Below, one piece after another: positions 9,078 to 40,578 of a DNA stretch of 64,000 nt; the stretch's first letter is position 1; the number at the start of each line of letters is the position of its first letter. The DNA is from Mesoflavibacter sp. GTDB lineage: Bacteria; Pseudomonadota; Alphaproteobacteria; UBA8366; Aestuariispiraceae. The notes under the pieces were generated by a model. The model had not been told where the DNA came from. It did no database searches and saw only the letters and a program-made list of their open reading frames with translations. The stretch covers positions 4,742,148-4,806,147 of the forward strand of contig CP051228.1 of assembly GCA_017792345.1 (NCBI GenBank), in the 5' to 3' direction. The position numbers and the translations under genes were made by a program.

Positions 9078-10019
9078 TCAATCCGTGTTCCCGTCCGTCA
9101 GGATGTCCCAGCCGGAGACGCTGGTACGGCGGCGGCGCGGCAGGAGGGCGAGTGGGACGGTCGCCAGGAAATGCAGGTAGATGATCGCCGATAGGCCGGC
9201 CAAAACCGCTTTGGGATAGAATTCCCAGAAATTCTTGCGGAAGAAGCGGATCAAGGACCGGTGCTTGTGCCAGTTGACGAAGACCGGCCGGTGCTGGGAG
9301 CTGACCCCCTTATGGTGCAGGACCTCGACCGTCGGCAGGAAGAAGATGTCGCGCCCATCCTGGGTGAGGCGCAGGCACAGATCGATATCCTCGAAATGCA
9401 GGAAATAGCTTTCGTCGAACGCACCAAACTTCTTCAGATCGGCCGCCCGGACCATCATGCAAGCGCCGGAGACGGCCTGAACGATGGTCGCCCCTTTCGG
9501 CAGGGGACGCTGAGTGTGATTGAAATGCCGGAAGCGCGGGTGGTTCGGCAATAATTTGTGAATGCCCAACAGCACGCAGCCGACCTGGAACGGGGATGGG
9601 ATGTCCCGGCGGCACCCCGCCTGCTCGCGTCCGTCTGGACCGAGGATAAGCGGACCGACCATGCTGGCCTTGGCGTTCTTTTCCAGGAACCGGCTCAGGC
9701 GCGACACGCTGTTGGCCGACAGGACGCAATCCGGATTCAAGAACAGGATATGCCTGCCCGAAGCGGCCTTCAGCCCGGCATTGCAGCCATGGGCGAAGCC
9801 GGAATTATAGCCGACCTCGACAATTGTTATGGTGCGGCGATCGTTGGACAGTGTGCGGATGGCCGCCAGGCTGTCGTCCGTCGACGCGTTGTCGACGACA
9901 ATGACTTCCAGGTCGACGCGGGTCTGGGCCAGGACGCTCTGCACAGCGTCCAGCAGATAGTGGCCGGCATTGTAGTTCACGATAATGACGGAAACCGCCG
10001 TGTCCTTGCGGACGGCCAT
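9078..10019 (-). CDS. Glycosyltransferase family 2 (rhamnosyltransferase-like)
   Basis: 313 residues from the ATG at 10019, which follows AGGGGGG at good distance; a TTG at 10037 overlapping the upstream stop is the alternative. GT-A fold: SVIIVNYNAG at the N terminus, VVDNASTDDSL, then FLNPDCVL as the DxD-equivalent metal site, and FDESYFLHFEDIDLCLR, the ED acceptor-site motif of WbbL-type enzymes. The C terminus has a hydrophobic segment (about residues 277-300) that may bind the membrane. It would transfer a sugar from a nucleotide donor to a lipid-linked glycan. It is coupled to the O-antigen ligase-like gene upstream; the exact donor is unknown. Confidence 0.9.
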   Translation of the reverse strand: MAVRKDTAVSVIIVNYNAGHYLLDAVQSVLAQTRVDLEVIVVDNASTDDSLAAIRTLSNDRRTITIVEVGYNSGFAHGCNAGLKAASGRHILFLNPDCVLSANSVSRLSRFLEKNAKASMVGPLILGPDGREQAGCRRDIPSPFQVGCVLLGIHKLLPNHPRFRHFNHTQRPLPKGATIVQAVSGACMMVRAADLKKFGAFDESYFLHFEDIDLCLRLTQDGRDIFFLPTVEVLHHKGVSSQHRPVFVNWHKHRSLIRFFRKNFWEFYPKAVLAGLSAIIYLHFLATVPLALLPRRRRTSVSGWDILTDGNTD

Positions 10020-10033
10020 CCGATCTGCCCCCC

Positions 10034-12100
10034 TCAATCTTGCGGCGCCGGTGCCGCCGTGCCTCCCGCCGCCCCGTCCCCATAGTCGCGCCGCAAATCC
10101 GCTTCGAACTGCGGGTCGATGGGCAAGATCACATCCAGCCCCAGATCAATCGCGCGCAGAATCGAACGCATCGCGTCACGGTTCCGTTCTGCCGGAACTT
10201 TATGCAGGGATGCAAGTGCCGCGTAATAGATTGCAACCGGATCGTCCGGGTTCTGCTGCAGTCTACGCGTCGTTTCCGCCGCGAGCCGGTCGAACGCTCC
10301 AGCATGCTTCAAAAACTCGAAATAGCCGACCGATATATCGGATCGTTGCGGTTCCAGAACCCAATGTCTCTCAACGAGCGCATGCCACAAATTCACCTTT
10401 TCCACGGCGATCTGCTGCATTTCCGCGCCTTGAAAGAAGGCCAGGTCGTTTAGAACGGACAAGCCGACCAAGAGCATGGGGGCAGCATCAACCGACGGCA
10501 GCACCGATTCCATTCGGTTCAGCAGCGCCATGGCCAGCGGCGCATCGTCCGCCCAGCCCCGGCTTTCGCGCAACCTTTCCCTTTTCCGCCAAAACTCCCG
10601 CAGCAGAGTGGATTCTACGAAGCTCGTCCCGCGTGGATCGTGCGGAAACGTCTCGAACCGCAAGGGCTGATCCGGCGCCTCGACGGCCCGGTCGAACTTG
10701 TACGGAGCGACAGCGATATCGAACGCCGCCAATCGGGCAAACGTAACCGAAAAGAGGATACCCAACACCGCCATCGCTGTAGCGAAGCCCGCCTGTCGCC
10801 ATCTAGGGACGGCTTGCCCTGACCATTCAACCGCCTCCGAGTCCGGTTGATCCGCAAGGACGCACCGCGCCGCTGCCAGGGCGAGAAAGGGTAGAGCGAA
10901 GCTGAGTTCGAACCAGAGTCCCCCGAGTACGAGATAGAACAGCAACAGGAACCAAAGTGGTGCCCGCTGTGCCTGCGCGGCGTGACGGATCGCCATCGCG
11001 AATACGACAATATGTACGGCCAGCCCCAGTATTCCAGCCGACATCAGGGTTTCGAGCGCCGCATTATGGCTGTGGAAGATATCCCTCCAAATGAAGTCCC
11101 AATCCTGTCTGTAGATCGGAAACTCCGCCGCCAAAAAGTTGGAATAATAGGCCGCCTGCACATGGCCCCAACCGTGCCCGAGCACCAGTTCGACCAGGCT
11201 GGCCTGCTCAAGAACCGCCCAGGACAAATCGTGAATATGGACGCGGGATTGCAGGGATGCGGGAAGTTGATCGAGCGGCAGGACAAGCATCAGCGCGGGT
11301 GGGCCAAGAATTGTGATCGCGAGCAATCCGACGGCCGCAAACGGATGTCTGAAGAACCGCAGAATTGCTGCGGCGGAGGGCAAAAGCCGGCAACAGGCCA
11401 GCAGGATCGCCAGACCTGCCGAAAGGACGATGGCCGCCAGGTTGCCGCTCACCACCATCAGCACCACGGACACGCCAAGAATGGCCCGGTTCTTAGGGCT
11501 GGCTAGGCCGGCACCGGTTAGCGACACGGCAATGCCCGCCGCAGCCAAGTAGGCGTACGAATCTCCGCCGGGCAGGAACAGGACGGTCTCCGGCATCAGC
11601 ATATCGGCGATCCGCCCGGCCGCCATGCCGGTCAGCGCCGCAAGTAGAGTCCAGTCGAGACCGCGGCACCACGCATCGCTTCGTACTAAGATCGAAAAAA
11701 GCAGTGCGACTGTTGCGAAATGCGCGAACCAAACCACGCCAAGTCCGGACTGATAGGTGCCGGTAATAGCAAGGAGTGGAAATTCGGCAGCCACAACCCC
11801 TGGCAATCCGCCGGCGGCTAGGGCGAGGCCACCATAAAAGAGACCACGCCCCTGCCCTTGCAGCGATTGAAAGACCGGAATGTTACTGGATCGCAGCAGT
11901 GCCAAAACCAGGCAGCCGCACGCCAGTGCGCCCCCCAGATGCATCATCCAGATGGACACCGCGGTCAGCCGCCAAGCCCCCCATTCAAACGGCTGCAACG
12001 CCCCGAACGGCGACAGAAGCATCACCGCCACGGCGGCGCTGGCCAGGACTTGGAACGCCTGTCCGGTCCCGCTATCGGCGTCGCGCAGGGGCGATGTCAT
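10034..12100 (-). CDS. O-antigen ligase/polymerase-like multispanning membrane protein with C-terminal soluble domain
   Basis: 688 residues. Residues about 15-445 contain at least ten hydrophobic helices, interrupted by a large periplasmic loop with the Wzy_C/WaaL signature HSHNAALETLMSAGILGL, whose His-Asn lies just before a helix. Residues about 470-688 are soluble and helical (TPR-like stretch DDPVAIYYAALASLHK), an arrangement seen in Wzy_C-plus-TPR polymerases. The protein would ligate or polymerise undecaprenyl-linked glycans at the periplasmic face. The downstream glycosyltransferase start overlaps or abuts its stop. Ligase versus polymerase cannot be decided from sequence. Confidence 0.85.
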   Translation of the reverse strand: MTSPLRDADSGTGQAFQVLASAAVAVMLLSPFGALQPFEWGAWRLTAVSIWMMHLGGALACGCLVLALLRSSNIPVFQSLQGQGRGLFYGGLALAAGGLPGVVAAEFPLLAITGTYQSGLGVVWFAHFATVALLFSILVRSDAWCRGLDWTLLAALTGMAAGRIADMLMPETVLFLPGGDSYAYLAAAGIAVSLTGAGLASPKNRAILGVSVVLMVVSGNLAAIVLSAGLAILLACCRLLPSAAAILRFFRHPFAAVGLLAITILGPPALMLVLPLDQLPASLQSRVHIHDLSWAVLEQASLVELVLGHGWGHVQAAYYSNFLAAEFPIYRQDWDFIWRDIFHSHNAALETLMSAGILGLAVHIVVFAMAIRHAAQAQRAPLWFLLLFYLVLGGLWFELSFALPFLALAAARCVLADQPDSEAVEWSGQAVPRWRQAGFATAMAVLGILFSVTFARLAAFDIAVAPYKFDRAVEAPDQPLRFETFPHDPRGTSFVESTLLREFWRKRERLRESRGWADDAPLAMALLNRMESVLPSVDAAPMLLVGLSVLNDLAFFQGAEMQQIAVEKVNLWHALVERHWVLEPQRSDISVGYFEFLKHAGAFDRLAAETTRRLQQNPDDPVAIYYAALASLHKVPAERNRDAMRSILRAIDLGLDVILPIDPQFEADLRRDYGDGAAGGTAAPAPQD

Positions 12101-20968: not shown

Positions 20969-21886
20969 TCAGGCGGCCGCCTGGGCGACGATCTTTTCCA
21001 CGCTGATCCCATGTTCCGCCAGGATATCGTCGTGGCTGCCATAGCAGTGCACGAACTCGTCCTTCAGCGTATGGGTGTCGATTCGCGCTGTCGCGCCGAT
21101 ATCCCAGGCCAATTGCTTGATCTCGGACGCCAGACCGCCGCGCGGCACCATCTCCTCGATGACGATGACATGCTTATGCGCCTTGATCAGGGCCGCGGCA
21201 CCTTCCTTGTCGAAGGGTTTCAGGGTGCTGGCGGCGACCAGGGAAACCGAACGGCCGGAATCGCGCAGTCGCTGGGCAACCTGGGACGCGTGGCGCATGG
21301 TGACGCCATAGGAAAGGATCAGCACATCGTCACCGGTCTGGATGCGGCGCAGCTTGCCGAAACGCCACGGATCGACCGCCCCTTCCGTCAGAACCGGCTC
21401 CCCGGCCTTGCCGAGACGCAGATAGACCGGCCCCTGGCTCTCCGCCGCGCAATATTCCGTGGCGGCCACGGTTTCCAGCGGATCGCTGGGCGCGATGACC
21501 GTCATATTGGGGATGGAGGCGGCGATGGCGACGTCTTCCTGGGCATAATGCGTGCCGCCCAGGGTCGAATAGATCACACCGCCGCCGATGCCGACCACCG
21601 TGACCGGCAGGTTCTGATAGCACAGGTCGTCGCGGACCATCTCAAACGGCCGGTACAGGCTGAAGGTCGCGATCGTATAGGCGAAGGGCCGCATGCCCTT
21701 CAGCGCCAGACCGGCACAGATACCGATCATGGCCTGTTCGGCGACACCGGTATTGATGAAGCGTTCGGGGAACTCTTCCCGGAACTTGCCCATGCTGCCC
21801 GCCGGTGAGATATCGGCGACGACGACATGGATGCGGGGGTCTTCGACGCCCTTGGCGTACAGCGTTTCCGCGAAATGATTGCGCAT
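20969..21886 (-). CDS. Transketolase, C-terminal (pyrimidine-binding plus C) subunit
   Basis: 305 residues, corresponding to the second half of transketolase. The Pyr domain includes FINTGVAEQAMIGICAGLAL, with the catalytic Glu (in VAEQ) that activates ThDP, and GGGVIYSTLGGTHYAQEDVA; the C-terminal domain has VSLVAASTLKPFD. GAGGAGC precedes the ATG. It pairs with the N-terminal subunit 28 bp upstream. Split transketolases occur both in archaea and in sugar-specialised clusters; here the context is nucleotide-sugar synthesis, not the pentose-phosphate pathway. Last gene of the nine-gene operon. The ketol donor and acceptor are unknown. Confidence 0.93.
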   Translation of the reverse strand: MRNHFAETLYAKGVEDPRIHVVVADISPAGSMGKFREEFPERFINTGVAEQAMIGICAGLALKGMRPFAYTIATFSLYRPFEMVRDDLCYQNLPVTVVGIGGGVIYSTLGGTHYAQEDVAIAASIPNMTVIAPSDPLETVAATEYCAAESQGPVYLRLGKAGEPVLTEGAVDPWRFGKLRRIQTGDDVLILSYGVTMRHASQVAQRLRDSGRSVSLVAASTLKPFDKEGAAALIKAHKHVIVIEEMVPRGGLASEIKQLAWDIGATARIDTHTLKDEFVHCYGSHDDILAEHGISVEKIVAQAAA

Positions 21887-21914
21887 CTTCGTAGCTCCTC
21901 GACGACCAGCCTGA

Positions 21915-22757
21915 TTAACCTGAAATTTCCGTCAGCTCGTCGAGCGCGGTCTTGTACTCTTCCGGATTGGGCGACCGGTAATGCCAGATCGGCACCCCTT
22001 CCATATAGGAAACGCCCTTGCCCTTGGTCGTCTTGCAGACAAGCGCGAAAGGTCCCTTCCCTTCGCGCGACGTGACCGCCTGGAACATCGCGGCGGCATC
22101 GTGACCGTTCACCGTCTCGCATTCCCATTGGAAGGCACGGAACTTGTCGTCCAGCGGATAGAAGCTGGGATGCGTCAGATGGGTCTGGCCGAGGCTCTGG
22201 AAGTTGTTGTTGTCGACCAGCATGACCAGATTGGTCAGCCCCAGGGACGACGCCATCATGATCGCCTCCCAAGTCGACCCTTCCTGGATCTCACCATCGG
22301 ACAGGATCGCATAGACGGTCGCGCCCGACTTCTTGTTGCGCTCCGCAATCGCCATGCCGACCGCCATGGCAAGACCGTGACCCAGGCTGCCGGTCGAGGC
22401 TTCGATGCCCGGTACGCCATAATCCGGATGCGCGCCCAATTCGCCATGGGCCGTGCAGTACCGGTCCAATTCGCCATTCGCCAGCACACCGAGATATTCC
22501 AGGATCGCGTATTGCGCCATGCAGCCATGGCCCTTGGACATCAGGAAGACGTCGTCGCTGGACCCGTCGTCCTTGCGCCGCATCAGGCCGTTATAGACGG
22601 TGTCCGCGATTTCCATGCACGAGAAGGCCGGCGCGATGTGCAGCGCCGTGACGGTCTGCGATACGTCCAGAATACGCCGGCGGAACCCCATGCAGCGCTT
22701 GCGGGACGCCGCGGCGTCGAAATCGTTGAGAAGCAGTGGTCGCGCGGTCGCGGTCAT
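21915..22757 (-). CDS. Transketolase, N-terminal (ThDP pyrophosphate-binding) subunit
   Basis: 280 residues from the ATG at 22757 after GGGGGACAT; a further in-frame ATG at 22841 would overlap the methyltransferase gene and is rejected. Residues show SKGHGCMAQYAILEYLG, STGSLGHGLAMAVGMA and the ThDP/Mg signature LSDGEIQEGSTWEA...LVDNNNFQS, the GDG-to-NN motif with Ser in place of the first Gly. It would form a heterotetramer with the C-terminal subunit. It lacks the C-terminal half and cannot act alone. Operon position directly behind the methyltransferase suggests the pair extends a sugar or sugar-phosphate intermediate (inference). Confidence 0.93.
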   Translation of the reverse strand: MTATARPLLLNDFDAAASRKRCMGFRRRILDVSQTVTALHIAPAFSCMEIADTVYNGLMRRKDDGSSDDVFLMSKGHGCMAQYAILEYLGVLANGELDRYCTAHGELGAHPDYGVPGIEASTGSLGHGLAMAVGMAIAERNKKSGATVYAILSDGEIQEGSTWEAIMMASSLGLTNLVMLVDNNNFQSLGQTHLTHPSFYPLDDKFRAFQWECETVNGHDAAAMFQAVTSREGKGPFALVCKTTKGKGVSYMEGVPIWHYRSPNPEEYKTALDELTEISG

Positions 22758-22791
22758 TGGGAATGTCCCCCGGATAGACGATGAAAAGCGA

Positions 22792-23460
22792 TTATTCGAA
22801 AACGATGAACCCGTAATCCCCGGTATATCCGTTGGTCTCATAAATCCAACGCCATTCCTCCGGTGAATAGAAGCTCTCGCAGGTCAGTTGCCAGTACAGC
22901 AGATTCACCTTCTCGCGTTCGCTGCGATAGGATTCCAGCATGATGTATTGCTTGTCGCCCTTGCCGACACGCGCAATCTCCTGAACCGATTTGAACAGGT
23001 CCATGATCTTCAGATTGTGCAGCGTCGTGAAGGAGATCACGAAGTCGAAGTGATCGTCCGGCCAGGGCAGTTCGCGGGCGTGCCCCTGAATCAGATTGTC
23101 ACGCACTTCTGGCTTCGCGTCGTCGATACCGTATTGCGAGATATCGATCCCATGCACTTCCACACCGGGGACGGCCTGGGTGAATTCATAGAGCAGATAG
23201 CCTTTGCCGCAGCCGACATCGAGAATGCGGTCGCCCGGCTTGATTCCGTAATGCTTCGCAATCTTCTCCGCGATCGGATACCAGCGCCCGTCATAGCGAT
23301 AGCCGCCATAACCGTATTGCCGTTCGCCGTCCCAGTAATCCCGGCCGAACTGCTTGGCCACCGTCGCACAGTCGGCCTTGTCGAACTCCACGACGCGCTG
23401 AACGTAATCACGCTTGGTGCTGTTATGCAGCGCGGAAACGAAATCGATTTCTTGAAGCAT
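22792..23460 (-). CDS. Class I SAM-dependent methyltransferase of the sugar operon
   Basis: 222 residues from the ATG at 23460, preceded by GAGGGGGA. SAM-binding motif I is ILDVGCGKGYLLYEF, followed by HGIDISQYGIDDA (acidic end of strand 2), GHARELPWPDDHFDFVIS (motifs II-III) and TLHNLKIMDL. The N-terminal part (YWDGERQYGYGGYRYDGRWYP) is Tyr/Gly-rich and typical of the methyltransferases found in such carbohydrate clusters. It could O- or C-methylate a nucleotide-linked sugar, but the substrate is unknown. Located between the LIC12192-type gene and the transketolase pair. Confidence 0.87.
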   Translation of the reverse strand: MLQEIDFVSALHNSTKRDYVQRVVEFDKADCATVAKQFGRDYWDGERQYGYGGYRYDGRWYPIAEKIAKHYGIKPGDRILDVGCGKGYLLYEFTQAVPGVEVHGIDISQYGIDDAKPEVRDNLIQGHARELPWPDDHFDFVISFTTLHNLKIMDLFKSVQEIARVGKGDKQYIMLESYRSEREKVNLLYWQLTCESFYSPEEWRWIYETNGYTGDYGFIVFE

Positions 23461-23485
23461 TCTTCCCCCTCGAACCGGCCTGAAA

Positions 23486-23947
23486 TCAGGCCGCGCGTAT
23501 GCCGGGCGCCAACCGTCCGACAATGTCGTCGGTATCGCGCTGCGCCAGTATCTGGCACAATTGCAGGACCCGTTCCACCCGGTCGACGTCGTCTGCCGTC
23601 CCGATCCGGTAATTCTCGACCGCCGCGAACAGGACGCTGCCGCGTTCCAGGACCCGGCGGTAGATGTCCCGGCGATGCTCTTCGGTGGGCGGCAGCATGA
23701 AAAGTGAATAAAGGATGACGCCCTGCCGTTCGGACATGGCGGATATCTCGGCATCCAGCATCAAATAGCAATTGTCGGACGCATATTCGGTCGTGCTGAG
23801 TTTGAACTGCAGTCCCTGACGCGATGCGAAATCTCGGTTCACCAGGTTCTGAATATGCTGCGGTATCCGGTCCCCGGCGATCGGGCGGCTGAAGATATAG
23901 CCGCGCGCCGCTTCCAGGGGATCGTTCTTCAGCGTGCCATCAGGCAT
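23486..23947 (-). CDS. Sporadic carbohydrate cluster protein, LIC12192 family
   Basis: 153 residues from the ATG at 23947, which overlaps the 2OG-oxygenase stop by 8 bp. The pattern GYIFSRPIAGDRIPQHIQNL, then TEYASDNCYLMLDAE, then GVILYSLFMLPPTEEHRR and a final helix with LFAAVENYRIG is the profile I recall for the LIC12192 family, a small protein seen only in carbohydrate clusters of scattered species. No catalytic motif is recognised. Tight coupling with the oxygenase and its constant company with transketolase, SIS and kinase genes imply a role in one sugar pathway. Family call from memory of the motif; function is unknown. Confidence 0.82.
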   Translation of the reverse strand: MPDGTLKNDPLEAARGYIFSRPIAGDRIPQHIQNLVNRDFASRQGLQFKLSTTEYASDNCYLMLDAEISAMSERQGVILYSLFMLPPTEEHRRDIYRRVLERGSVLFAAVENYRIGTADDVDRVERVLQLCQILAQRDTDDIVGRLAPGIRAA

Positions 23948-24752
23948 CACGGAAGCCTCCGGGAAGCTGATAGGCGATCCCGATCGCGCTGGCAGGCCGT
24001 AGGGTGATCGGTTCGAAAAACTCGCCCAGCCGCTTGTCGGCATAGGGCGTGAACACACCCTTGTAGCGGCAATTCATGCTCCACCGGGTCTCCGGCTCCG
24101 CATTCACCACATTGCCGTGCAGCAGGTTCTGATTGAAGACCATAACCTGCCCGTAAGCGATTTCGATCCAGACCAGATCGTCGCGGATATCCTCCATCAA
24201 GGCATCGGCATCGGGGTAGTTCTTCAGGGAATCCTGAACTTCCTGATTACGCTTCGGCGGCAGGATATACATCGCCTTGGTCCCATAGCAGTCGACCATG
24301 GGCGTCCATTGAACCACCTCGTAAGGCGAATCGCCGGACAGGACGTCGGCATGAACAGGCAGGATGGAGCTGTCGTCATCCGGCATCTGGATCGATAGGT
24401 TTACCCGGCGCTGCATCGCGATTTCATTGCCGACCAACATGCCCAGCACGGTGCGCGCCTGACTGAAATAGTCGCGGCGGAAGCCTTCCTGCTGGTTCAT
24501 CCGGTTGAACACGGTCAGGCGCAGGTCGTTCAATGTCTGGCCGGTAACGCGCGTATGGATTTCGTTCAGGAACACGCCGGGATCCGACGGCGCGTTCACC
24601 CCCAAATGATCGGCCGCGATCCCCGCAACCAGGGTTTGGATCCGATCCAGACCGGCGCGGTCTTCCGCGTCGCGGATGACATAGCCTTTGTCGAAAAATT
24701 CGGAAGTCAGCCGCCGCTCTTCGTCAGTCAGAAAATCGGTATTCAGTTCCAT
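23940..24752 (-). CDS. Sporadic carbohydrate cluster 2OG-Fe(II) oxygenase (PhyH-like)
   Basis: 270 residues. The iron site is visible: LPVHADVLSGDSPYEVV gives the HxD pair, and QNLLHGNVVNAEPETRWSMNC gives the distal His plus the Arg that would bind 2-oxoglutarate. PMVDCYGTKAMYILPP is characteristic of this cluster-specific branch. These enzymes are phytanoyl-CoA dioxygenase-like; here the expected substrate is a sugar or nucleotide sugar, hydroxylated or oxidised. It lies 18 bp after the SIS gene and overlaps the LIC12192-type gene. No member with known substrate is recalled, so the reaction is inferred from the fold only. Confidence 0.85.
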   Translation of the reverse strand: MELNTDFLTDEERRLTSEFFDKGYVIRDAEDRAGLDRIQTLVAGIAADHLGVNAPSDPGVFLNEIHTRVTGQTLNDLRLTVFNRMNQQEGFRRDYFSQARTVLGMLVGNEIAMQRRVNLSIQMPDDDSSILPVHADVLSGDSPYEVVQWTPMVDCYGTKAMYILPPKRNQEVQDSLKNYPDADALMEDIRDDLVWIEIAYGQVMVFNQNLLHGNVVNAEPETRWSMNCRYKGVFTPYADKRLGEFFEPITLRPASAIGIAYQLPGGFRDA

Positions 24753-24769
24753 CGGTCCGATACGCCTTT

Positions 24770-25378
24770 TCAGATGCCCTTCAAGGTGCCGGGCCCGTTC
24801 CAGCCCAGGAGCATATCTATGGCGGCCGAGAGCAGCATCATATGACTTAGCTCAACCGGACCGTATTCTTCGCTGGCGATATAGAAGTTCACGTCGCCCA
24901 GCTTGCGCAGCGGATTGTCGGGCTTGAAACCGCTCAAGGTGACGATCTTCATCCCCTTTTCCCGGGCGCTGTTACAGGCGTTCAGGATATTGGCTGAACG
25001 GCCGGAACTGGAGATCGCAATCAAAAGATCGCCCGCGCGGCCATGCAATCCGATCTGATGAGCATAGACCTGATCATAGCCCAGATCGTTGGACAGGCAG
25101 GTCAGCATGCCCGCATCGTTATGCGCGACGGCGGCAATCCCGCCGCGTTTGGAGAAATCGACCGACATATGGCTGGCGATGGCCGCGCTGCCACCATTCC
25201 CGACAATTCGCAACACCCCGCCGCCGGCCTTCAGTTCCGTCAGCAGGCGGCAGGCCGTCGCAAGCCCGTTATCAATCGATGCCGCCGTCCCGTCCCGATC
25301 GGTCGAAACCCCATCCCGCACCAAGGCAGACACTGTCTCGGCATAAGTCGCAATCGGGGTCAGGGCTGTCTCGGTCAC
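24770..25378 (-). CDS. SIS-domain phosphosugar isomerase (GmhA-like)
   Basis: 202 residues from a GTG start preceded by GGGAGAG. SIS fold: LRIVGNGGSAAIASHMSVDF binds the sugar phosphate, as GNGGSAADA does in GmhA; ISSSGRSANILNA is the second phosphate-binding loop; the C-terminal EYGPVELSHMMLLSAAID carries the Glu and His that match GmhA catalytic positions. GmhA converts sedoheptulose 7-phosphate into D-glycero-manno-heptose 7-phosphate. With a transketolase in the same operon, a heptulose or octulose phosphate substrate is plausible. No GmhB phosphatase was found in the window. Confidence 0.88.
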   Translation of the reverse strand: MTETALTPIATYAETVSALVRDGVSTDRDGTAASIDNGLATACRLLTELKAGGGVLRIVGNGGSAAIASHMSVDFSKRGGIAAVAHNDAGMLTCLSNDLGYDQVYAHQIGLHGRAGDLLIAISSSGRSANILNACNSAREKGMKIVTLSGFKPDNPLRKLGDVNFYIASEEYGPVELSHMMLLSAAIDMLLGWNGPGTLKGI

Positions 25379-25409
25379 TCTGTCTCTCCCATGCCGGAAC
25401 GGTTCGCCG

Positions 25410-26954
25410 CTATTTCAGAAGGCTGACAATCGATTTCAGCGTCGCCGTCTTCTCGACATTCTGGCGATGCCCGATATAGCTGGCCTTCAAGCCGCCGATA
25501 ATATTCCCGACGAAACCGACATCGCGCAATTGGCCGCCTGCGCGGGTCAATGCGGAGGCGACCACGAAGAAAGCATCGCCCGCCCCCATCGTATCGATCG
25601 CCGATGTATTGAAGGCCGGAACATGGACAATGCCGTTCTTGCGGCACCAGGCCATGCAGCCTTGCTTGCCCAGCGTGATGAAGATCTTCTCCGCATCGAT
25701 GCTGGCCGGAAGATCCTTGGTCAGAATGTCGTTCAGATCGCCATGCTTGCTGTGCACCGCCAGACGGCTTTCCGGCTCGTCGATACACACAAAATCGGCA
25801 CGGCGGTATTTGGTGACCGGATTGAAGCCTCGGTTGGCCGCGTTCGACTGGGTATTGATCGCCAGGAACTTGGCCTTCTCCTCCAAGAGTGAGATCAGCC
25901 CGTTGGTCAGCATGCCGTGTCCGAAATCACAGACGATGACCAAGTCATAATCGTCGATGCAATCGTTCAACTGCTTTTCGATGGCTGCCTGCCGTTGAGA
26001 ACTGATCGGGCGGTCATCCATGTAATAGATTTCGAACAGTTTCTGCATGCGGACCGGGTCGACATAGCGCCGCTTGCGGATCGTCGGCCGGCTGGAATGG
26101 GTATGCAGCAACAGATTCACATTGCCGCTGACATGCTTGCGTACGAAATCTTCGTAGCCGTCCTGACCGATACAGGTGATCACATCGACCTGTTCGCAGA
26201 AGCCGGCCAAATGGTTGGCCGCCGCCAGCACCCCGCCGGCGAACAGTTCTTTCGATTGATACAAAACGGCGAGGACGTTTTCCTTCGCCGATTTCTGCAT
26301 CGGATTGACGTATTGGTATTCGTCCAGAATGGTCTCGCCGATCAGCAGGACCTTATAGTCCTTCACCTTGTTGACCAGTGCGATCAGCTTCTCCGGAGAC
26401 ACTTCCTCCCGCATTTCCTCAAGGAAGGCCGTCACTTCGGAATCATGAGCCGAGAAGTGACGGTTGATCAGTTCCGACGAACTGAAGGTCAGTTCATCGG
26501 TAAAGACCAGGTTCCCGCCATGGCGTTCCACCATCTCGCGTTCGGCCTGGATCTTGCCGGTGATGTCGTCGTCGGCATTCGCGTAATCCGACCCTTTGAC
26601 GTAATAGGTCGGCTTGATCGCGTCCAACAGGGTCTCGGCGGAGGAATCGGGATTGATGCCCGACCAGTCGACGCAGGTCAGCGACGACAGCATCTCGGCG
26701 CGCAGGTCTTCGGGGAAAACCGGTCGGCCGGGGCCTTTGTTGACGAACTTGTCCGCGGTGACGGTACAGATCATCACATCGCCGAACTTCCGCGCCGCCT
26801 CCAGGTGGCGAACATGCCCCAGATGCAGAAGGTCGAAGACGCCATGCGCCAGAACGACCGACTGTCCTGCCTGCCGGGCCTTGGCGGAAATGGCACTCAA
26901 TTCATCGATGGTAAGGACGCGCGAACGCGCATAGGCGGACTTTGTCATAGTCAC
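25410..26954 (-). CDS. Nucleotidyltransferase-PfkB kinase fusion (HldE-like, reversed domain order)
   Basis: 514 residues from a GTG that overlaps the preceding stop (GTGA); an ATG at 26948 is the alternative. Residues about 30-165 are a cytidylyltransferase-like domain with LAHGVFDLLHLGHVRHL (the HxGH nucleotide-binding motif). Residues about 195-510 are a PfkB/ribokinase domain ending in AIDTMGAGDAFF, with the catalytic Asp. HldE, which phosphorylates heptose 7-phosphate and then adenylylates the 1-phosphate, has kinase first and transferase second; here the order is opposite. It would activate the operon's sugar as an NDP derivative. Nucleotide and sugar specificity are unknown. Confidence 0.88.
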   Translation of the reverse strand: MTMTKSAYARSRVLTIDELSAISAKARQAGQSVVLAHGVFDLLHLGHVRHLEAARKFGDVMICTVTADKFVNKGPGRPVFPEDLRAEMLSSLTCVDWSGINPDSSAETLLDAIKPTYYVKGSDYANADDDITGKIQAEREMVERHGGNLVFTDELTFSSSELINRHFSAHDSEVTAFLEEMREEVSPEKLIALVNKVKDYKVLLIGETILDEYQYVNPMQKSAKENVLAVLYQSKELFAGGVLAAANHLAGFCEQVDVITCIGQDGYEDFVRKHVSGNVNLLLHTHSSRPTIRKRRYVDPVRMQKLFEIYYMDDRPISSQRQAAIEKQLNDCIDDYDLVIVCDFGHGMLTNGLISLLEEKAKFLAINTQSNAANRGFNPVTKYRRADFVCIDEPESRLAVHSKHGDLNDILTKDLPASIDAEKIFITLGKQGCMAWCRKNGIVHVPAFNTSAIDTMGAGDAFFVVASALTRAGGQLRDVGFVGNIIGGLKASYIGHRQNVEKTATLKSIVSLLK

Positions 26955-27991
26955 TTCGATTCAGTCGTTGCTCGACCGACATTGTCGCTCGACTTATCCA
27001 AATGGGCGAACCAGCTCGCTGTCGCGCTGGCAATGCTGTCCGGGGTCCAGAGCGGCGCCTCGCGCCAATCCTCGATCCGTTCGACCACACGGCCGACACC
27101 TTCTTCGAAGGAGATCTTCGGCGACCAGCCCAATACGGCCTTCGCCTTGTCGATATCGGCCCAGGTGCAGTCCGGTTCACCGGGCCGCTTCGGCAGCGTC
27201 ACGCGCTCCCCGCCCAGCAATTCCACCAGCTTGTTGACCGTTTGCGGATTGCCGGCACCGATGTTGAAGACTTCACCCGAAACATCCGTCCGTGCGGCCG
27301 CATAGAACCCGGCGGCGACATCGGTGACATAGATGAAATCACGCGACTGCGTACCGTCACCAACGACCGTCAACGGCTTATCGGCCAGCTTCTGCTTCAA
27401 GAACACGCCAAATACGGCACCATAGGCGCCGGTCGTCCTGGACCGCGTGCCGTAGGCGTTAAAGATGCGCACCGAATTGACCGGCAGACCATAGACCTGA
27501 TGCCAGTGCAGGGCCGCCTGCTCCCCCAGATTTTTCGACAGCGCATAGGGATATTGCGGCGAAATCGGGTTGGTTTCCCGGGTCGGCGTATCGGCCAAGC
27601 CATAGCAGGAAGACGATGCCGCATAGACGAATTTCTTCGCCCCCGCGTGACGTGCGGCCTCCAGGATACGGACGGTTCCCTGAACGTTGACCCGCATGTA
27701 GTCGGTCGGCGCTTCGATCGAAGGGACGATGTCGCCGATGCCGGCAAAATGAAAGACATAGGTCGCGCCGTCGAATAGCGGGTCGTCCTTTTCGACATCG
27801 CAGATGTCGCGCCATTCGCAGACCAGACCGGGATCGTCCTTGCGGTGCGCCAGATTGCTTTCCCGACCGCCGGTCAGATTATCGATGACGCGGACCGTGA
27901 AGCCTTCATCCCGCAACAAGTCGACCATGTGACTGCCGATGAAACCGGCGCCCCCCGTCACTACCGCAATCTTGTCTGAAGCCGTCACCAC
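26951..27991 (-). CDS. NAD-dependent sugar epimerase/dehydratase (extended SDR) 1
   Basis: 346 residues from a GTG start after GGGGGAT. Intact Rossmann motif VVTGGAGFIGSHMVDLL; Ser in AASSSCYG and the catalytic pair in YPYALSKNLGEQ (YxxxK); RIFNAYGTRSRTTGAYGAVF and DGTQSRDFIYVTDVA shape the nucleotide-sugar site. Closest in pattern to UDP-glucose or UDP-glucuronate 4-epimerases and related dehydratases. It overlaps the kinase-transferase gene by 4 bp and lies 36 bp after the second SDR, so the two probably act in sequence on one nucleotide sugar. Confidence 0.92.
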   Translation of the reverse strand: MVTASDKIAVVTGGAGFIGSHMVDLLRDEGFTVRVIDNLTGGRESNLAHRKDDPGLVCEWRDICDVEKDDPLFDGATYVFHFAGIGDIVPSIEAPTDYMRVNVQGTVRILEAARHAGAKKFVYAASSSCYGLADTPTRETNPISPQYPYALSKNLGEQAALHWHQVYGLPVNSVRIFNAYGTRSRTTGAYGAVFGVFLKQKLADKPLTVVGDGTQSRDFIYVTDVAAGFYAAARTDVSGEVFNIGAGNPQTVNKLVELLGGERVTLPKRPGEPDCTWADIDKAKAVLGWSPKISFEEGVGRVVERIEDWREAPLWTPDSIASATASWFAHLDKSSDNVGRATTESK

Positions 27992-28027
27992 ATCCCCCTG
28001 TCTCGTCCGGCCAAACAGAAACCCGCC

Positions 28028-29047
28028 TTATGACGCCTTCTTCATCTTCATCGTCGTGACGTTCACATAGTTCGGATCGGTCAGGCTGTTCGGGATCTTT
28101 CCGGCCTTGAAGGCCTCGACCAGATCACGAACCGCATCCTCGACCGTGAAGATAGGCTCAAAACCGATCTTCTCCTTGATCCGGTCGGAATTCACCCGAT
28201 AGGACCGGGTGTCGTTACTGGGCGTGAAGTCGATCTCGATTCCGCCCAGTTCCGGCATTTCCTCTTCGACGACCTTCTTGACGATCTGGGCAATCTCTTT
28301 GACCTGCAGATTGCGGAACCCGACATTGAACGTCTCGCCCTGGATCTTGTCCGACGGCAGGGCCAGCAGCAGCTGATAGGCCCGGACCATGTCCTTGATA
28401 TGCAGGTTCGGGCGGTACTGTTCGCCGCCGAAGACGGTGATCTTGCCTTTGTTGACCGCGTGGTTGGTCAGGATATTCACCGTCAGGTCCAGGCGCAGCC
28501 GCGGGCCGTAGCCGCAGACCGTCGACGGCCGGATCGTGACGCAGGTGAAATCGTCGGACTGATGCTTGAACAGCAGCGGCTCGCACATGCCCTTGAACTT
28601 GTTGTAATCCGTCAGCGGTACCAGCGGGTGATCTTCACGCACATCCGGCGCTTCGGATACGCCGTAGACCGAACTGGTCGAGGCATAGATGAAACGCTTT
28701 ACCCCCGCCTGCTTCGCCGCGACGACCATCGGCTCGAAACAGTCGTAGTTGATCGATTTGGACAGGGCGCTGTCCAACTCGAAGCTGGGATCGTTGGAAA
28801 TACAGGCCAGGTGAATGACCGCGTCATGACCTTCGACTGCCGCCGCGAAGGTCGGCGTATCGCGCAAATCGCCTTCCACAAGGGTCAGGTTCGGATTGTC
28901 TTTCGGCAGGTGATCGGTGCCGAAATACATGATGTCGAACACCGTCACCTCATAGCCGTCGTCCAGCAAGGTCGGGATCAGTAGGCTGCCGACATAGCCG
29001 GCGCCACCTGTCACCAAAACATGCTTGAACTGATTGCTGCCAGCCAT
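28028..29047 (-). CDS. NAD-dependent sugar epimerase/dehydratase (extended SDR) 2
   Basis: 339 residues from the ATG at 29047, with GGAGG 11 bases upstream; a frame to 29194 exists but adds unrelated Arg-rich sequence. HVLVTGGAGYVGSLLIPTLL is the NAD motif; YASTSSVYG and TDYNKFKGMCEPL provide the Ser and YxxxK; TIRPSTVCGYGPRLRLD and EQYRPNLHIKDMVRA are typical of nucleotide-sugar SDRs. First gene of the nine-gene operon, with a promoter-like sequence about 180 bp upstream. Two different SDRs in one operon fit a 4,6-dehydration or epimerisation followed by reduction (inference). Confidence 0.91.
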   Translation of the reverse strand: MAGSNQFKHVLVTGGAGYVGSLLIPTLLDDGYEVTVFDIMYFGTDHLPKDNPNLTLVEGDLRDTPTFAAAVEGHDAVIHLACISNDPSFELDSALSKSINYDCFEPMVVAAKQAGVKRFIYASTSSVYGVSEAPDVREDHPLVPLTDYNKFKGMCEPLLFKHQSDDFTCVTIRPSTVCGYGPRLRLDLTVNILTNHAVNKGKITVFGGEQYRPNLHIKDMVRAYQLLLALPSDKIQGETFNVGFRNLQVKEIAQIVKKVVEEEMPELGGIEIDFTPSNDTRSYRVNSDRIKEKIGFEPIFTVEDAVRDLVEAFKAGKIPNSLTDPNYVNVTTMKMKKAS

Positions 29048-35534: not shown

Positions 35535-38500
35535 TCACAAAGTGTAGAAATTCAGCAAATCCGCCGAAACGATCGCGTCAGCTTCAGCCTGCAACGATTC
35601 GGAGATCTCCTTGCGCCAATTGGTACCCCGCGCGCAAATTTCTGAGAAGGGATCGACATCGTCGTTCATGGCGATCTGAACGTAGTTTCGCAGCGCCTCG
35701 ACCCCCGGGTTCACGCCAAAGCGCAGAATTGTCTTCTCGATGGTACCGGTCGGATCGTCGGCCATGTCCCGGTACCGCACGATCGTGCAGTCCATGCCGG
35801 TTTCGATGGCGGCCTTCCAGCCTTCCAGCCATTTCAACGATTTCGGCATGGCATCCCGGAACAGCTCCTCCAGTTCCTCACCGCTGTCCTTGCGGTTCAG
35901 GATGATCGAATGGCGGAGGGCGGTTTCCATAGCCGCTTCTCTGGGGTCGCGGACGACCAGGAACATGTGGCCGGGCGGGAACCGTTTCAGATAGTCCAGG
36001 TTGTCCGGCGCCGCATCGAACCGGTCCGTCAGCACGCAGCCCCCAGCGGCTGCGTTCTCGATCCAATTCGGGACAATCTTGCCAATAAAAGGATCTTTCA
36101 TCATCGAGCAACGCAGGATCGGCAGTCCGACGATGTCAGCGATTGCATTGACCAGAAACTGGTTCGAACTACCAGCCAGGCCGACCACCAGGGTGCTCGG
36201 CATGCCGTCTTCGATACGGGCCGCCTGTCCTTCGGCACGGGATTGCGACATTCGCAGATGCGCGTAATAGGGCAGTCCGCCGTAATCCCCAGCAGATTTC
36301 AGGCCGGAACGCTGCATCAGGTCGATCGCGTCCTGCAGCCGTCCCAAATGGGCGAGGCCAATCGCGATACCATGCGCCAATCGGCTTTCGCGATCCGATT
36401 CCGCGTCCAGCACAGGATCGTAGTCGATGGCCGCGTTAAACAGCGCTTCCGCCGCATCCAGATCGCCGGCCTTCCATGCGTCGTACATCGCCACAATATC
36501 GGCTCGGATGTCCTGGGATTTGAACACGGCCATCGCCCCGGCGGGCATGTTGTACTTGTAATAGGCGCTGCGAATGCCGCACCGGGCGTCGCCCAGATGC
36601 ATCGCGCCCGTCGCTTCCAGGAACAGCGGCTCCAGATTCGTGAAATGAACCCGGTCCCAGCGCATAATCGGGGTCTGCAACACCCGGATCACGTTCTGAT
36701 GGCGCGGATGTTCCGGCTCGCAAATGGCGCGTCCGGCATACTCCGCCTGCTTGTAGGTTCCGACATTCGCCAGTTTCGTGAAGACGACGACGTCGACGTC
36801 CAATTCCTGACCCAGTGCCACGAAATCCGGCATCTCGCGGTAATTCTCTTCCTGAACGACGAAGCGGATTTCGAACTGGCTGATCTTCCCGCTCTTGCGC
36901 AGGCCGGCGATGAATTTCAGGTTCTCGCGCAACCGGACGAAATCGCCGCGCCGCCGGACGCTGGCATAGGTGTCCACCTGTGCGGCATCAATCGACACGG
37001 CGACCTTGATGTCCAAGTGATGGATATTCTCCATCTCATCCCATTCACGCTCGGTGAACAGCAGGCCGTTCGTAATCAGGATGATGCTTTCCAGATTGCT
37101 GTGCACATCCTTGTCGATCGCGCGCAGGATCTGGCGGTAGTGGCGGCTGGCGAAGGGATCGCCGCCATTGGTGATGATCACCTCCTCGACATTCTCCAGC
37201 AGTGGCAGAATGACGGTATCCTTGGCGACTTCCAGCCGCTGACGTTCCTTGCCCTTCGCCACCAGCAGATGAATGCGGCATTGCGGGCAGGACAGTTGGC
37301 AGGTCTCATCATGCCCCAGATCGACGCTGCGGACCGGCCCATCCAGGCGGATCGTCGCGTTATCGATGATCGACTTCAGCCAGGGATCCTGGATCGTCTG
37401 CCGCTTGGGCAGCGTTGCGCTGTTCATCAGATGGCAGTGGACGCGGCTGCAATACCGGAAACTGCCGTCATGGATGGACGCGCGAACTTCCTGCGCGGCG
37501 TCCGAATTCCAAATATCGTCCCAGCTTTCGTCCGAATAGATATTGCCCGACCGCACCGGCACCATCAGCGCGCAACATTGATGGACGTCGCCCCCCGGAT
37601 TGATCGCCGCCGTCGTGAAGGGGATGTGGCAGAACCGTTCCTTCAGATCGATCTTGAAGGACGGCGGAATACCTTTGATGTCCTTGGCATCGTCGCCCAA
37701 TTGCGCCAGCGCATAGGTGACGACGCTCTGGCTCAGCAAGCAGCGGGAATCGCTGTTCAACGCCTCCTGGGCGATTTTAATGGCACCGCGCCAGTTCTTG
37801 TCGGCCAGCCGCCTGCCCGCGAGATAGAGCAGCGGAACCCGGTCTCCGCCCTCAGTCCGGGTAAATTCCAGGAACGCGTCCAACAGGGCATCCCGCTTTT
37901 CCGTGTCGTCGCCATAGGCCAGGTGCAGCAGATGGGTGAAGGCTGCCAGATGCGTCGCCTGCTCGTTCGTACCCAGCACTTTCAGCTTGTCGAAGATCAG
38001 CGTATCGGGGCGGTAATGGCGGAACCATTTATGATAATGCATGCGCGCCCGGTGAATGATCCCGGCCGTATCTTCGCGCCAATTGCCGAGCGCCACGGCA
38101 TTGGCCAAAAGGTCGTGCACCAGATCAATCGGTGCTTCGTCGACACTCGCCGTCAGTCCGAACTGTTCGCGGTCCACCAGAAGGATCGCGCCAATCTGGC
38201 GCAGGGATGTCTCCGTCTCCCGGCACAGCGGATCCTGGCGATAAGCCCTGACCGCAAGTCTCGCGGCCACCCAGGGCGTCGATTGCAACGTCCGCGATGC
38301 CAGATTGAGGAACACCCGGTCGTCCGGCATCAGCTTCCCGATCGCACTGATCAGATGTGCGCGCTTTGACGGTTTAGCAGGCTCCGGTTCAGGTGCCACC
38401 GCCAGATCGATCAAAACCTCGCCGGCCCTGATATGCGGCCCGATATCGTTCGGCAGCCCCTCGCCATTCGCGAATAGGGAATAATGCTGATGCACGAAAT

Positions 38501-39017
38501 GCAGGGCCTGCATCAGGTTCTCTTCGTTGGGATCGCTGTAGACCCTGTGGGATACATCGATCAGGGTCCGGATCGCGATCTCCGCATCCGTCCCCAGACG
38601 CCTCTCCGGCACGGTCTTGCCCATGATGGACAAGACACCGACGACAAGTCGGGAGAGAGGCGAGGCGGTCGGTGAGAGTTTCTGGGACCGCGCGATCAGC
38701 GAGACCGCGCCCGCGATATCGCATTCGGCGAGACGAAGCTCGGCCTGGCGGATCGGAATCGCCGCATCTCCGGGCTGCGCTTCCGCCACTCTGTTCAGCA
38801 GTTCGAATTCGTCCTCAAGGCCCCCGAGCAGAAACCCTAGGGCCCCGACACGGCCGCTGATGCCGGTTTGGTCCTCGGCATCGAATTCCCGCCAGACGGT
38901 ATGAATGAAGTGAACGATCTCCGGCACCGGCGTGGCACCGCCGGCCAACGACTCGCGAATGGAGCGCGCGCGCTCCTTATCGAGATCGTCGGCGACGGGT
39001 TCAGCCAGTTGTGCCAT
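35535..39017 (-). CDS. Giant fusion: helical repeats, SPASM-like Cys cluster, radical SAM core, sulfotransferase-like domain
   Basis: 1160 residues. Residues 1-450 are helical, TPR-like. A SPASM-like segment follows: C463, C481, C482, C523 and C528, with the typical GDVHQCC and [15 protein letters not shown] patterns. Next comes the radical SAM core with C573-x3-C577-x2-C580 (TCQLSCPQC) and [16 protein letters not shown] as the GGEP-like SAM site. A TPR-like region (about 860-930) leads to a sulfotransferase-like domain (about 940-1160) with [19 protein letters not shown] and [15 protein letters not shown]. Placing the Cys cluster before the core is unusual. Overlaps the ABC ATPase gene by 17 bp. 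The substrate is unknown. Confidence 0.85.
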
Positions 39018-39759
39018 TGCTTACATGTCCTCTGTACTGCGCGGCGACTTCGTCGAAAGGACCGTACGCCATAAGCCGGCCATGGTCTATCCAAAGGCCC
39101 TTATTGCAGATTCGGCGCTGCGCCTCTTCCGAATGCAGGGCGATCATCAGACCGCGTGCGCTCGACGCCATTTCCGAAAGGCGCGCATTCGCCTTCTGGA
39201 AGAAGGACGTGTCCCCGACGCCGATGACCTCGTCCACCAGAAACACATCCGGTACCCGCGTCGTAGCGATCGCGAAGGCGAGACGCAAGCGCATGCCTGC
39301 GGAATAGGTCCGGATCGGCATGGCGAGGTAGTCGCCCAGTTCCGAGAAATCGGCGATGCTTTGCGCATGCTGATCGCATTCTTCGAGGCTGAGGCCCCAG
39401 AGCAATCCGCAGAGCTTGATATTCTCCCAGCCGGTCGCTTCGCTGTCCATCCCGAGGGATATATCGAACATCGTCGAAACCCGGCCCGCGACGGTAACCG
39501 TGCCCTCGGACGGCGGATAAACACCGGCCAGGACGCGCAGCAGCGTGCTCTTGCCCGCGCCGTTGGACCCCATCAATGCGACCCGGTCACCCTCTTGCAT
39601 CGTAAAGGACAGATCGCGCAAGGCATCGACCTTGACCCGGGACCCCTCGACATTCACCCGGCCGCCGGTGGCGTGCTTCACCAATCGGTGACGGAAGGAT
39701 TGCGCCGCCGCGTCATAGACCGGATAGCGCAAGGATACGTTATCAACGGATACCAACAT
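39001..39759 (-). CDS. Polysaccharide ABC exporter, ATP-binding protein (Wzt/KpsT type)
   Basis: 252 residues. Walker A is [20 protein letters not shown]; the Q-loop region is [14 protein letters not shown], characteristic of polysaccharide exporters (the Q is in the usual phase); the signature is [15 protein letters not shown]; Walker B is [13 protein letters not shown]; the switch His is in MIALHSEE. No C-terminal O-antigen-binding domain is present, unlike the longer Wzt proteins. With the permease directly upstream it would export a lipid-linked glycan across the inner membrane. It ends inside the start of the radical SAM gene, so the two are coupled. Confidence 0.95.
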
Positions 39760-39795
39760 CGGTCTCTCACCCCAACTTTACGGAAGGCTTCCGCG

Positions 39796-40578
39796 TCAGA
39801 TCCAAAAAACGAGCCGCCGGCGTGCGATCCGGTACAGGAACACGGTGAAAATCCAACCGATCACTGTCGTCGCAATGGCCACGTACCAGGACAGCATCCT
39901 CGGCTCCATGCCCAGCAACGGCGCGCGGACCAGTTCCATGAAATGGTAGAACAGGTTCAGCTGCAAAAAGAGCGGGATCTCGTTGCCGATTTCCTGTACG
40001 CCCCAGATTACCGGCGTCAGGAAGAAGGCCATCTGGACCAGGCTGAGGACCAGTTGCGGGATGTCGCGGTAACGGGCGCAGACGATACCGATGGAAATCA
40101 CGATCCAGATCCCATTGATCGTGATCAGGAACAGGCCGACCAGCGCCAAGGGCGTCACCCAGGTCGGCACGATCTTGTAGTAGAAGACGACCGGAACGAA
40201 GACGAGGAAGTTATGCGCCGTGAACAGAAGGTTGCGGCTGACGACCCGCATCGCGAAGACAATGACGGGTACCGGCCGCTGCTTGATGATCGCCGCGGCC
40301 TCCATGAAGGTGCGGCAGCCGTCCACGATCATCATCGACATCATGGTCCAGACGATGAAGCCGAGGCTGAGATGCGGAATGTAGGCCGTGTGCGGGGTTC
40401 CGAGGATGTAGCTGTAGACCGTTCCCAGCATCATGACCGTCAGGCCCATGCTCAAGGTCAGCCAGAACGGACCGATGACCGAGCGCCGGTAACGGCTTTT
40501 CAGGTCGAACCACGAAAGGGTCCACCACAAACGCCAGTTCATCAGACCGGCACCAATTTCCTGCAAGACGTCTTTCAC
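39796..40578 (-). CDS. Polysaccharide ABC exporter, permease (Wzm/KpsM type)
   Basis: 260 residues from a GTG at 40578 that overlaps the SDR stop as GTGA; a longer frame to 40818 overlaps the SDR and is rejected. Six membrane helices are visible, starting after WFDLKSRYRRSVIGPFWLTLSMG, the conserved ABC-2 N-terminal segment of O-antigen and capsule permeases. VCARYRDIPQLVLSLVQMAFFLTPVIW and the late FYHFMELVRAPLLG are also typical. It pairs with the ATPase 36 bp downstream. Presence of this pair means the island's main glycan is built in the cytoplasm and exported whole. Confidence 0.94.
   Translation of the reverse strand: MKDVLQEIGAGLMNWRLWWTLSWFDLKSRYRRSVIGPFWLTLSMGLTVMMLGTVYSYILGTPHTAYIPHLSLGFIVWTMMSMMIVDGCRTFMEAAAIIKQRPVPVIVFAMRVVSRNLLFTAHNFLVFVPVVFYYKIVPTWVTPLALVGLFLITINGIWIVISIGIVCARYRDIPQLVLSLVQMAFFLTPVIWGVQEIGNEIPLFLQLNLFYHFMELVRAPLLGMEPRMLSWYVAIATTVIGWIFTVFLYRIARRRLVFWI

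Follow-up and report, generated by a model that had tools for sequence, protein, structure and literature searches.

A hybrid sporadic carbohydrate cluster with a split transketolase: a candidate pathway for a branched higher-carbon surface sugar in an alphaproteobacterium

The DNA considered here, called the window throughout, is a stretch of 64,000 nucleotides (contig CP051228.1 of assembly GCA_017792345.1, positions 4,742,148 to 4,806,147) from a bacterium labelled Mesoflavibacter sp. and placed by GTDB in the alphaproteobacterial family Aestuariispiraceae. We focus on nine genes at 20969-29047 of the window, all open frames on the minus strand, which appear to encode a sugar-building pathway. 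Read in the direction of transcription, the block opens with two extended short-chain dehydrogenases/reductases (SDRs), SDR1 of the NAD-dependent epimerase/dehydratase type (28028-29047; PF01370 Epimerase, 2.9e-37) and the GalE/RmlB-like SDR2 (26951-27991; PF01370, 2.3e-57). They are followed by an HldE-like fusion of a nucleotidyltransferase and a PfkB kinase (NTK; 25410-26954; PF01467 CTP_transf_like, 1.9e-14, and PF00294 PfkB, 9.5e-16) and a GmhA-like SIS sugar-phosphate isomerase (24770-25378; SIS_2, 2e-16; TIGR00441, 4e-28, under cut-off). Then come a 2-oxoglutarate (2OG)-Fe(II) oxygenase of family TIGR04324, SpoChoClust_2 (23940-24752; 9.2e-93, 310 bits against a cut-off of 150), an LIC12192-family protein, TIGR04323 or SpoChoClust_1 (23486-23947; 4.9e-39, 133 bits against a cut-off of 55), and a class I S-adenosylmethionine-dependent methyltransferase (22792-23460; PF08241 Methyltransf_11, 4.5e-17). 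The block closes with the two halves of a transketolase, the thiamine diphosphate (ThDP)-binding N half (TKn; 21915-22757; PF00456 Transketolase_N, 3e-32) and the C half (TKc; 20969-21886; PF02779 Transket_pyr, 4.2e-30, and PF02780 Transketolase_C, 1.4e-21). Six gaps of 17-36 bases and two overlaps of 4 and 8 bases separate or join neighbouring genes, a spacing that suggests a single operon.

A first-pass annotation, made from the letters of the DNA, had described nine same-strand genes in this order with short gaps or overlaps; the open frames and boundaries bear this out, and Pfam and NCBIfam profiles agree with all nine of its family assignments. The two SpoChoClust markers are adjacent and each over the curated cut-off, and by these profiles the operon is a member of the NCBIfam "sporadic carbohydrate cluster" (TIGR04323/TIGR04324). 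The annotation was also right that neither the LIC12192 family nor the oxygenase family has an assigned reaction; the NCBIfam names specify neither reaction nor product. A literature search found no paper naming the sporadic carbohydrate cluster, LIC12192 or split transketolase.

The likeness of the SIS protein and the fusion to GmhA and HldE, as first annotated, is real in that these are their best NCBIfam matches, each far under its cut-off, but it is weaker than had been stated. The SIS protein scores 98 bits against a GmhA cut-off of 209, and in alignments to 2i22 and 5ltz the GmhA Glu is Val while the C-terminal His is kept, both of which we take to be catalytic. Among 12 SIS proteins resembling those of the type I clusters described below, the Glu is kept in only two (L023, L065), and all 12 have Asp at the following position. 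The fusion carries its nucleotidyltransferase at the N terminus and its kinase at the C terminus, the reverse of the HldE model. The annotated absence of the phosphatase GmhB from the window extends to the whole genome, in which TIGR00213 has no match at E<=0.001.

Residues H134, D136, H212 and R223 of the oxygenase, presumably the Fe- and 2OG-binding set (an HxD...H triad and the 2OG Arg), are kept in 38/38 copies (one contig counted twice). EvdO1 is among the PhyH-type oxygenases whose fold its structural model (mean predicted local distance difference test, pLDDT, 75.7) matches. The oxygenase and LIC12192 genes overlap, and at L064:3813-4892 an LIC12192 protein and a methyltransferase form one frame of 359 amino acids; because of this overlap and this fusion, the sequences suggest that oxygenase, LIC12192 protein and methyltransferase work together. 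The L064 genome is 1.2 Mb long and holds two oxygenase copies over the cut-off. For the LIC12192 protein the model is weak (mean pLDDT 64). Foldseek gave nothing at 0.001, its best match (E 0.01) being a gamma-delta resolvase:Hin chimaera, and profile and Pfam searches for a recombinase-fold domain yielded nothing credible, which leaves a serine recombinase fold as a lead at most.

In a phylum sample TIGR04324 exceeded its cut-off in 7/398 genomes, every one of them in the window's class, and in a class sample in 29/385 genomes (21/276 genera); the window's family has four further members in the class sample, none with a match. This patchy occurrence fits the name "sporadic"; outside the class it is judged from the phylum sample only, and Leptospira, the source of the family name, was not among the genomes compared. 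A plasmid search with the oxygenase gave no match at E<=0.001, and a viral-contig search gave one locus, an IMG/VR contig (L125:1-5615) with a transketolase C half, two DegT genes, oxygenase, LIC12192 protein and methyltransferase. This contig looks like bacterial DNA of the Bradyrhizobium-type cluster, and its viral label is probably a misassignment. Five Bradyrhizobium-type genomes carry the cluster, a designation that we assume for all five from the 16S of one (G335), to which the nearest plasmid-borne 16S, at 91.7%, is that of Bosea. In genome G740, which has no TIGR04324 match, a weak LIC12192-like match (26%) lies beside SIS and SDR1 matches (L186, near 16312), possibly a more distant form of the cluster.

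Orthologous clusters without transketolase, which the first-pass annotation had named as evidence that would speak against its proposal, did not turn up. A related C half was present at E<=1e-60 in 29/29 oxygenase-positive and 65/356 oxygenase-negative genomes of the class sample (Fisher 4e-20) and at 1e-100 in 26/29 and 14/356, respectively, figures for which two 385-genome samples are assumed to be identical and for which the profile favours cluster copies because it was built from six cluster members. Eight candidate transketolase-less clusters (L066, L067, L071, L077, L079, L080, L081, L084) were rejected, all of them being resolved: five by wider flanks, L067 by stretch L134, and genomes G502 and G597 by whole-genome search (L187).

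The remaining gene content was compared in 34 other oxygenase-positive genomes (28 from the class sample, four further Bradyrhizobium-type genomes from the phylum sample and two of three contigs of metagenome-assembled genomes; the third, L024, was left out as a duplicate of L083), with counts that refer to the stretches read, several of them on short contigs. The LIC12192 protein was found in 32/34, the methyltransferase in 31/34 and the transketolase C half in 30/34, the remaining four having one elsewhere in the genome. A relative of the NTK fusion occurs in 26/34, SDR1 and SDR2 at >=45% identity in 24/34 and 14/34, and the SIS protein in 18/34, a count that would miss a SIS gene further upstream in the five Bradyrhizobium-type stretches, which begin just ahead of SDR2. 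Two genes beyond the window's set, for an HAD protein and an APH-type kinase, are each present in 19/34. All window functions occur together in only 6/34 genomes (the transketolase N half was not counted separately), and hence the nine genes are not a fixed unit.

Two types can be told apart among the sister clusters. The usual order in type I is (SDR2), NTK, (SIS), SDR1, HAD protein, kinase, TKn, TKc, (two DegT), oxygenase, LIC12192 protein and methyltransferase. In type II it is (SIS), transaldolase, SDR1, SDR2, NTK, Gfo/Idh, nucleoside diphosphate (NDP)-sugar dehydrogenase, SDR3, methyltransferase, TKn and TKc, sometimes with a DegT-type gene after TKc, and with the oxygenase-LIC12192 pair present or absent. 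The HAD protein, in which we read the motifs DxDNT, SHKT and FIDD by eye, matches nothing in Pfam at 0.001 or in NCBIfam at 1e-5; at E<=0.001 it was found in both type I genomes tested and in none of eight type II or unclassified genomes, the window's own included. It accompanies the transketolase, together with the APH-type kinase, in type I clusters and in Solidesulfovibrio, outside the Alphaproteobacteria. There, L123:5447-8939 holds the HAD protein, the kinase and a transketolase C half with pseB/pseC upstream; no N half is annotated between those genes, and the annotation of the stretch shows neither SIS nor NTK. One transaldolase and one dehydrogenase of type II clusters score over cut-off, with TIGR02134 and TIGR03026 respectively, and for L173's DegT-type gene the aminotransferase matches all fall under cut-off. 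Transaldolase is present in L071, L112, L173, L177, L178, L181, L184 and L187, and a SIS gene adjoins the type II set only in some (L071, L112, L176, L187). Eight stretches (L173, L175, L177, L178, L179, L181, L184, L187) combine transaldolase, SDRs, kinase-nucleotidyltransferase, Gfo/Idh, NDP-sugar dehydrogenase and split transketolase, not all in each; of these, only L187's genome has TIGR04324.

By sequence identity the window cluster is a hybrid of the two types. For the transketolase halves, identity is 55-72% to type II (with L064 at 41-44%) and about 33-42% to type I, whereas the NTK fusion shares 45-52% with type I against 24-29% with type II and the methyltransferase 53-67% against 39-48%; the SIS protein and the type I SIS of L023 share 47% identity. 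The type II transketolases form a clade with support 1.0 in a FastTree tree; the window's C half, absent from the tree, is assigned to that lineage by identity.

Among solved structures, the window's transketolase is nearest to the split enzyme of Carboxydothermus (6yak for the N half, 6yaj for the C half). The window's C half keeps the AEQ and GTH motifs, and with them the pyrimidine domain's Glu at the cofactor site and its substrate His. In the alignment, the His and Arg of the phosphate site, which we take to correspond to yeast H469 and R528, are replaced by Gly and Lys; both are kept in 6yaj and in the genome's housekeeping transketolase. Of 45 sister C halves, 44 show the Gly/Lys pair and the 45th is truncated at that column (one contig, L024 and L083, is counted twice, and 14 of the 45 come from genomes without TIGR04324). 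Among 50 other split-type copies, 10/50 have the pair. This comparison set comprises 10 plasmid loci picked from 40 listed among 396 matching records, and 40 lower-scoring genome loci picked by hand; "split-type" here means that the two halves lie together in each locus, whether or not as separate genes. NDP-sugar dehydratase genes (annotated as such, or homologous to RfbG, RfbB or PseB at >=40% identity) adjoin 6 of the 10 Gly/Lys copies against 4 of the 40 others (Fisher 0.002, a value that ignores relatedness and uses a panel drawn from two of the tested loci).

Several of the Gly/Lys relatives adjoin genes for a CDP-glucose or UDP-GlcNAc dehydratase. On a Methylovirgula plasmid (L115:3964-9939), rfbF, rfbG, an oxidoreductase and rfbH lie with a Gly/Lys split transketolase at a point where one might look for a YerE-type enzyme, a candidate pathway for a two-carbon-branched dideoxyhexose. 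The Gly/Lys copy of Solidesulfovibrio lies with pseB and pseC. In Paenibacillus cellulosilyticus, an SDR is naturally fused to the transketolase N half (L122:3097-5004) in a row of rfbF, rfbG, methyltransferase, SDR-TKn fusion and C half, and such a fusion beside rfbF/rfbG fits an order in which a sugar is first oxidised and then branched. The Gly/Lys change, the dehydratase linkage and the SDR-fused relative together favour late two-carbon branching over an early supply of ketose. The role that the first-pass annotation had given the transketolase, to supply the ketose, is therefore probably misplaced.

The surroundings of the operon bear on where the sugar may be used. Beyond the nine proteins, 20 further window proteins were scanned (29 in total), revealing an ABC exporter pair (39001-40818), glycosyltransferases at 9078-10037 and 44212-45231 (11-15 kb from the operon), an RmlD-like protein, two sulfotransferase matches (one clear, one weak), and a pair of GDSL matches, of which one is barely over its cut-off and the other under. 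Because of this company, the neighbourhood suggests a surface-polysaccharide region. Adjoining the exporter genes, 35535-39017 encodes a protein of 1160 amino acids with SPASM and radical SAM matches. The genome also carries two further full-length transketolases with canonical motifs, and hence the split pair is likely to be specialised. These two genes are nearly identical and lie near opposite contig ends (G000:C1:12156-13127 and G000:C1:4861054-4862025; L133, L132), reflecting either a duplication or an assembly overlap.

Taken together, we propose as the product of the operon a nucleotide-activated higher-carbon sugar, probably C2-branched and methylated, destined for a surface polysaccharide. 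The SIS protein would convert a ketose phosphate of the heptulose or octulose class to an aldose phosphate, and the fused kinase and nucleotidyltransferase would phosphorylate C1 and attach the nucleotide. By epimerisation or oxidation, SDR1 and SDR2 would then turn the NDP-sugar into a keto form, onto which the split transketolase would move a two-carbon hydroxyacetyl unit, leaving a tertiary-alcohol branch. Oxygenase, LIC12192 protein and methyltransferase would act last, as a joint finishing module. Every reaction, the reaction order and the product are deduced from gene content, layout, co-occurrence and active-site changes, and we put the probability of the full ordered mechanism at roughly 0.5. 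That the operon serves a higher-carbon or branched sugar pathway of some kind is a good deal safer and, in our judgement, likely. In this broader form, a sugar-building and activation pathway beyond ordinary hexoses, the first-pass proposal gains support from the constant transketolase partner and from the genes that sister clusters add (HAD protein, transaldolase, aminotransferases, dehydrogenases); in some of these clusters the ketose could come from the transaldolase. A wider idea, a route of C-branching of sugar nucleotides by transketolases in Gram-negative surface glycans, is offered tentatively: a keto heptose or octose nucleotide plus hydroxyacetyl, added by a split transketolase whose phosphate site is remodelled, would give a branched C9-C10 sugar, then hydroxylated and methylated, with the same enzyme type working beside lincosamide-like or CDP-dideoxyhexose modules.

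A number of observations weigh against late branching. Four dehydratase-linked copies do not have the Gly/Lys pair: L226 (rfbF/rfbG) keeps the Arg, L201 and L218 (pseB/pseC) keep both His and Arg, and L206 (rfbB) has Gly and Ala. Conversely, L191, L197, L207 and L208 have Gly/Lys with no dehydratase gene at the >=40% threshold, L208 lying on a 3.7-kb contig. The His is also lost from a Listeria copy in an apparent sugar-use operon, and hence its loss alone is not diagnostic. A single origin of the Gly/Lys transketolases was rejected, with the smallest FastTree clade that holds all 54 Gly/Lys tips spanning 91 tips at a support of 0.37. An SDR must provide the keto group, given that none of the nine genes is an obvious 4,6-dehydratase. 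A phosphatase for a 1,n-bisphosphate is also missing, since GmhB and the HAD protein of the sister clusters both lack a match in this genome. We found no glycan structure for any carrier of the cluster. Literature searches gave nothing relevant among the papers listed for Leptospira O-antigen and no paper pairing apulose with transketolase.

The alternative that survives best is the order of the first-pass annotation, in which the transketolase acts first to make a special heptulose or octulose phosphate, and activation by SIS protein, kinase and nucleotidyltransferase then yields a linear higher-carbon sugar. Transketolases able to make octulose 8-phosphate are described in the available part of PMC5854111, that of PMC4351081 has the SIS isomerase LmbN acting on octulose 8-phosphate in lincomycin synthesis, and transketolase and SIS genes share one block here. 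With the phosphate-site His and Arg replaced, Gly/Lys copies also adjoining CDP-hexose genes and a transaldolase additionally present in some sister clusters, we regard this order as unlikely, though deserving of serious attention. An ordinary heptose-type pathway would draw sedoheptulose 7-phosphate from central metabolism and yield a modified NDP-heptose, the transketolase merely boosting the precursor. The best NCBIfam matches of the SIS protein and the fusion agree with it, but their distance from the GmhA and HldE cut-offs, the Val at the GmhA Glu, the lack of a GmhB match and the two full-length transketolases already in the genome make it improbable. Other split transketolases adjoin methylthioribose genes or sugar isomerase and kinase genes, which would allow a sugar-breakdown operon; no solute-binding protein or sugar-degrading set was found among the 29 window proteins scanned, and the nucleotidyltransferase, SDRs, methyltransferase and neighbouring exporter indicate synthesis, leaving breakdown very improbable. 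Weakest is bradyrhizose, a bicyclic C10 sugar that photosynthetic Bradyrhizobium carries in its O-antigen (structure covered in the available parts of PMC9912281 and PMC9042403), which the five Bradyrhizobium-type carriers bring to mind and whose O-antigen needs a sugar-modification gene cluster reported as conserved in six photosynthetic strains, polar effects not being excluded by the authors (PMC4743980, as far as its available text goes); we rejected the link as scarcely credible, unless the producers lie outside these genomes, given that TIGR04324 is not found throughout photosynthetic Bradyrhizobium but in 4/21 PF00124-positive and 4/18 PF00124-negative genomes (39 of 213 tested).

Among known systems, the octose pathway of the lincosamide antibiotics (LmbR, LmbN, LmbP, LmbK, LmbO, LmbM, LmbL, LmbZ, LmbS) shares with the window the logic of SIS protein, kinase, nucleotidyltransferase and SDR. 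LmbL is UGD-like and LmbZ Gfo/Idh-like. For lincomycin and celesticetin, the available parts of PMC12945683 and PMC4351081 list a transaldolase, an octulose 8-phosphate isomerase, a kinase, a nucleotidyltransferase, an epimerase, a dehydrogenase, an NAD(P) oxidoreductase and an aminotransferase. The sister clusters come closer through their transaldolase, NDP-sugar dehydrogenase, Gfo/Idh and DegT-type genes, a likeness by gene content and not by comparison with Lmb sequences. Unlike the lincosamide pathway, the window has no transaldolase homologue (E<=1e-5) and the operon neither phosphatase nor aminotransferase, its kinase and nucleotidyltransferase are fused in HldE-like fashion, and split transketolase, oxygenase and methyltransferase are extra. 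The type II parallel is itself incomplete, with no counterpart of the LmbK phosphatase in the type II genomes tested, a SIS gene beside only some and a weak DegT-type gene. The parallel is a point in favour of higher-carbon chemistry in the sister clusters and indirectly, because SDR1, SDR2 and transketolase are shared with type II, in the window. If the proposal is true, octose chemistry of lincosamide antibiotics would appear in Gram-negative glycans.

The closest analogues of the branching step are the split-gene transketolases of miharamycin and amipurimycin, which according to a recent review (PMC12247030) have been proposed to branch keto sugars, their function pending. The likeness, drawn from description and not sequence, lies in a two-gene transketolase within a sugar pathway with oxidoreductases; those are Streptomyces antibiotics and the step is unproven in vitro, whereas the window has an alphaproteobacterial polysaccharide setting. 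YerE-type branching, in yersiniose, erwiniose and caryophyllose, likewise relies on ThDP to form a C-C bond with a nucleotide-linked keto sugar, there for sugars of lipopolysaccharide, but YerE belongs to the decarboxylase superfamily and uses 2-keto acid donors, whereas the window enzyme is of the transketolase family. Should late branching prove true, transketolase-type enzymes would join YerE as makers of branched bacterial surface sugars, and two-part transketolases that couple to ketones would be testable catalysts. The GmhA-HldE-GmhB-HldD pathway shares the combination of SIS protein, kinase/nucleotidyltransferase and SDR and differs in that the window's genome has no GmhB match, the SIS Glu is replaced, the domain order of the fusion is reversed and the scores are far under the equivalog cut-offs. 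NCBIfam had already named the markers TIGR04323 and TIGR04324, whose partner genes and variants are described here from the present survey; if the proposal holds, both gain a testable place as finishing steps on a branched higher-carbon sugar.

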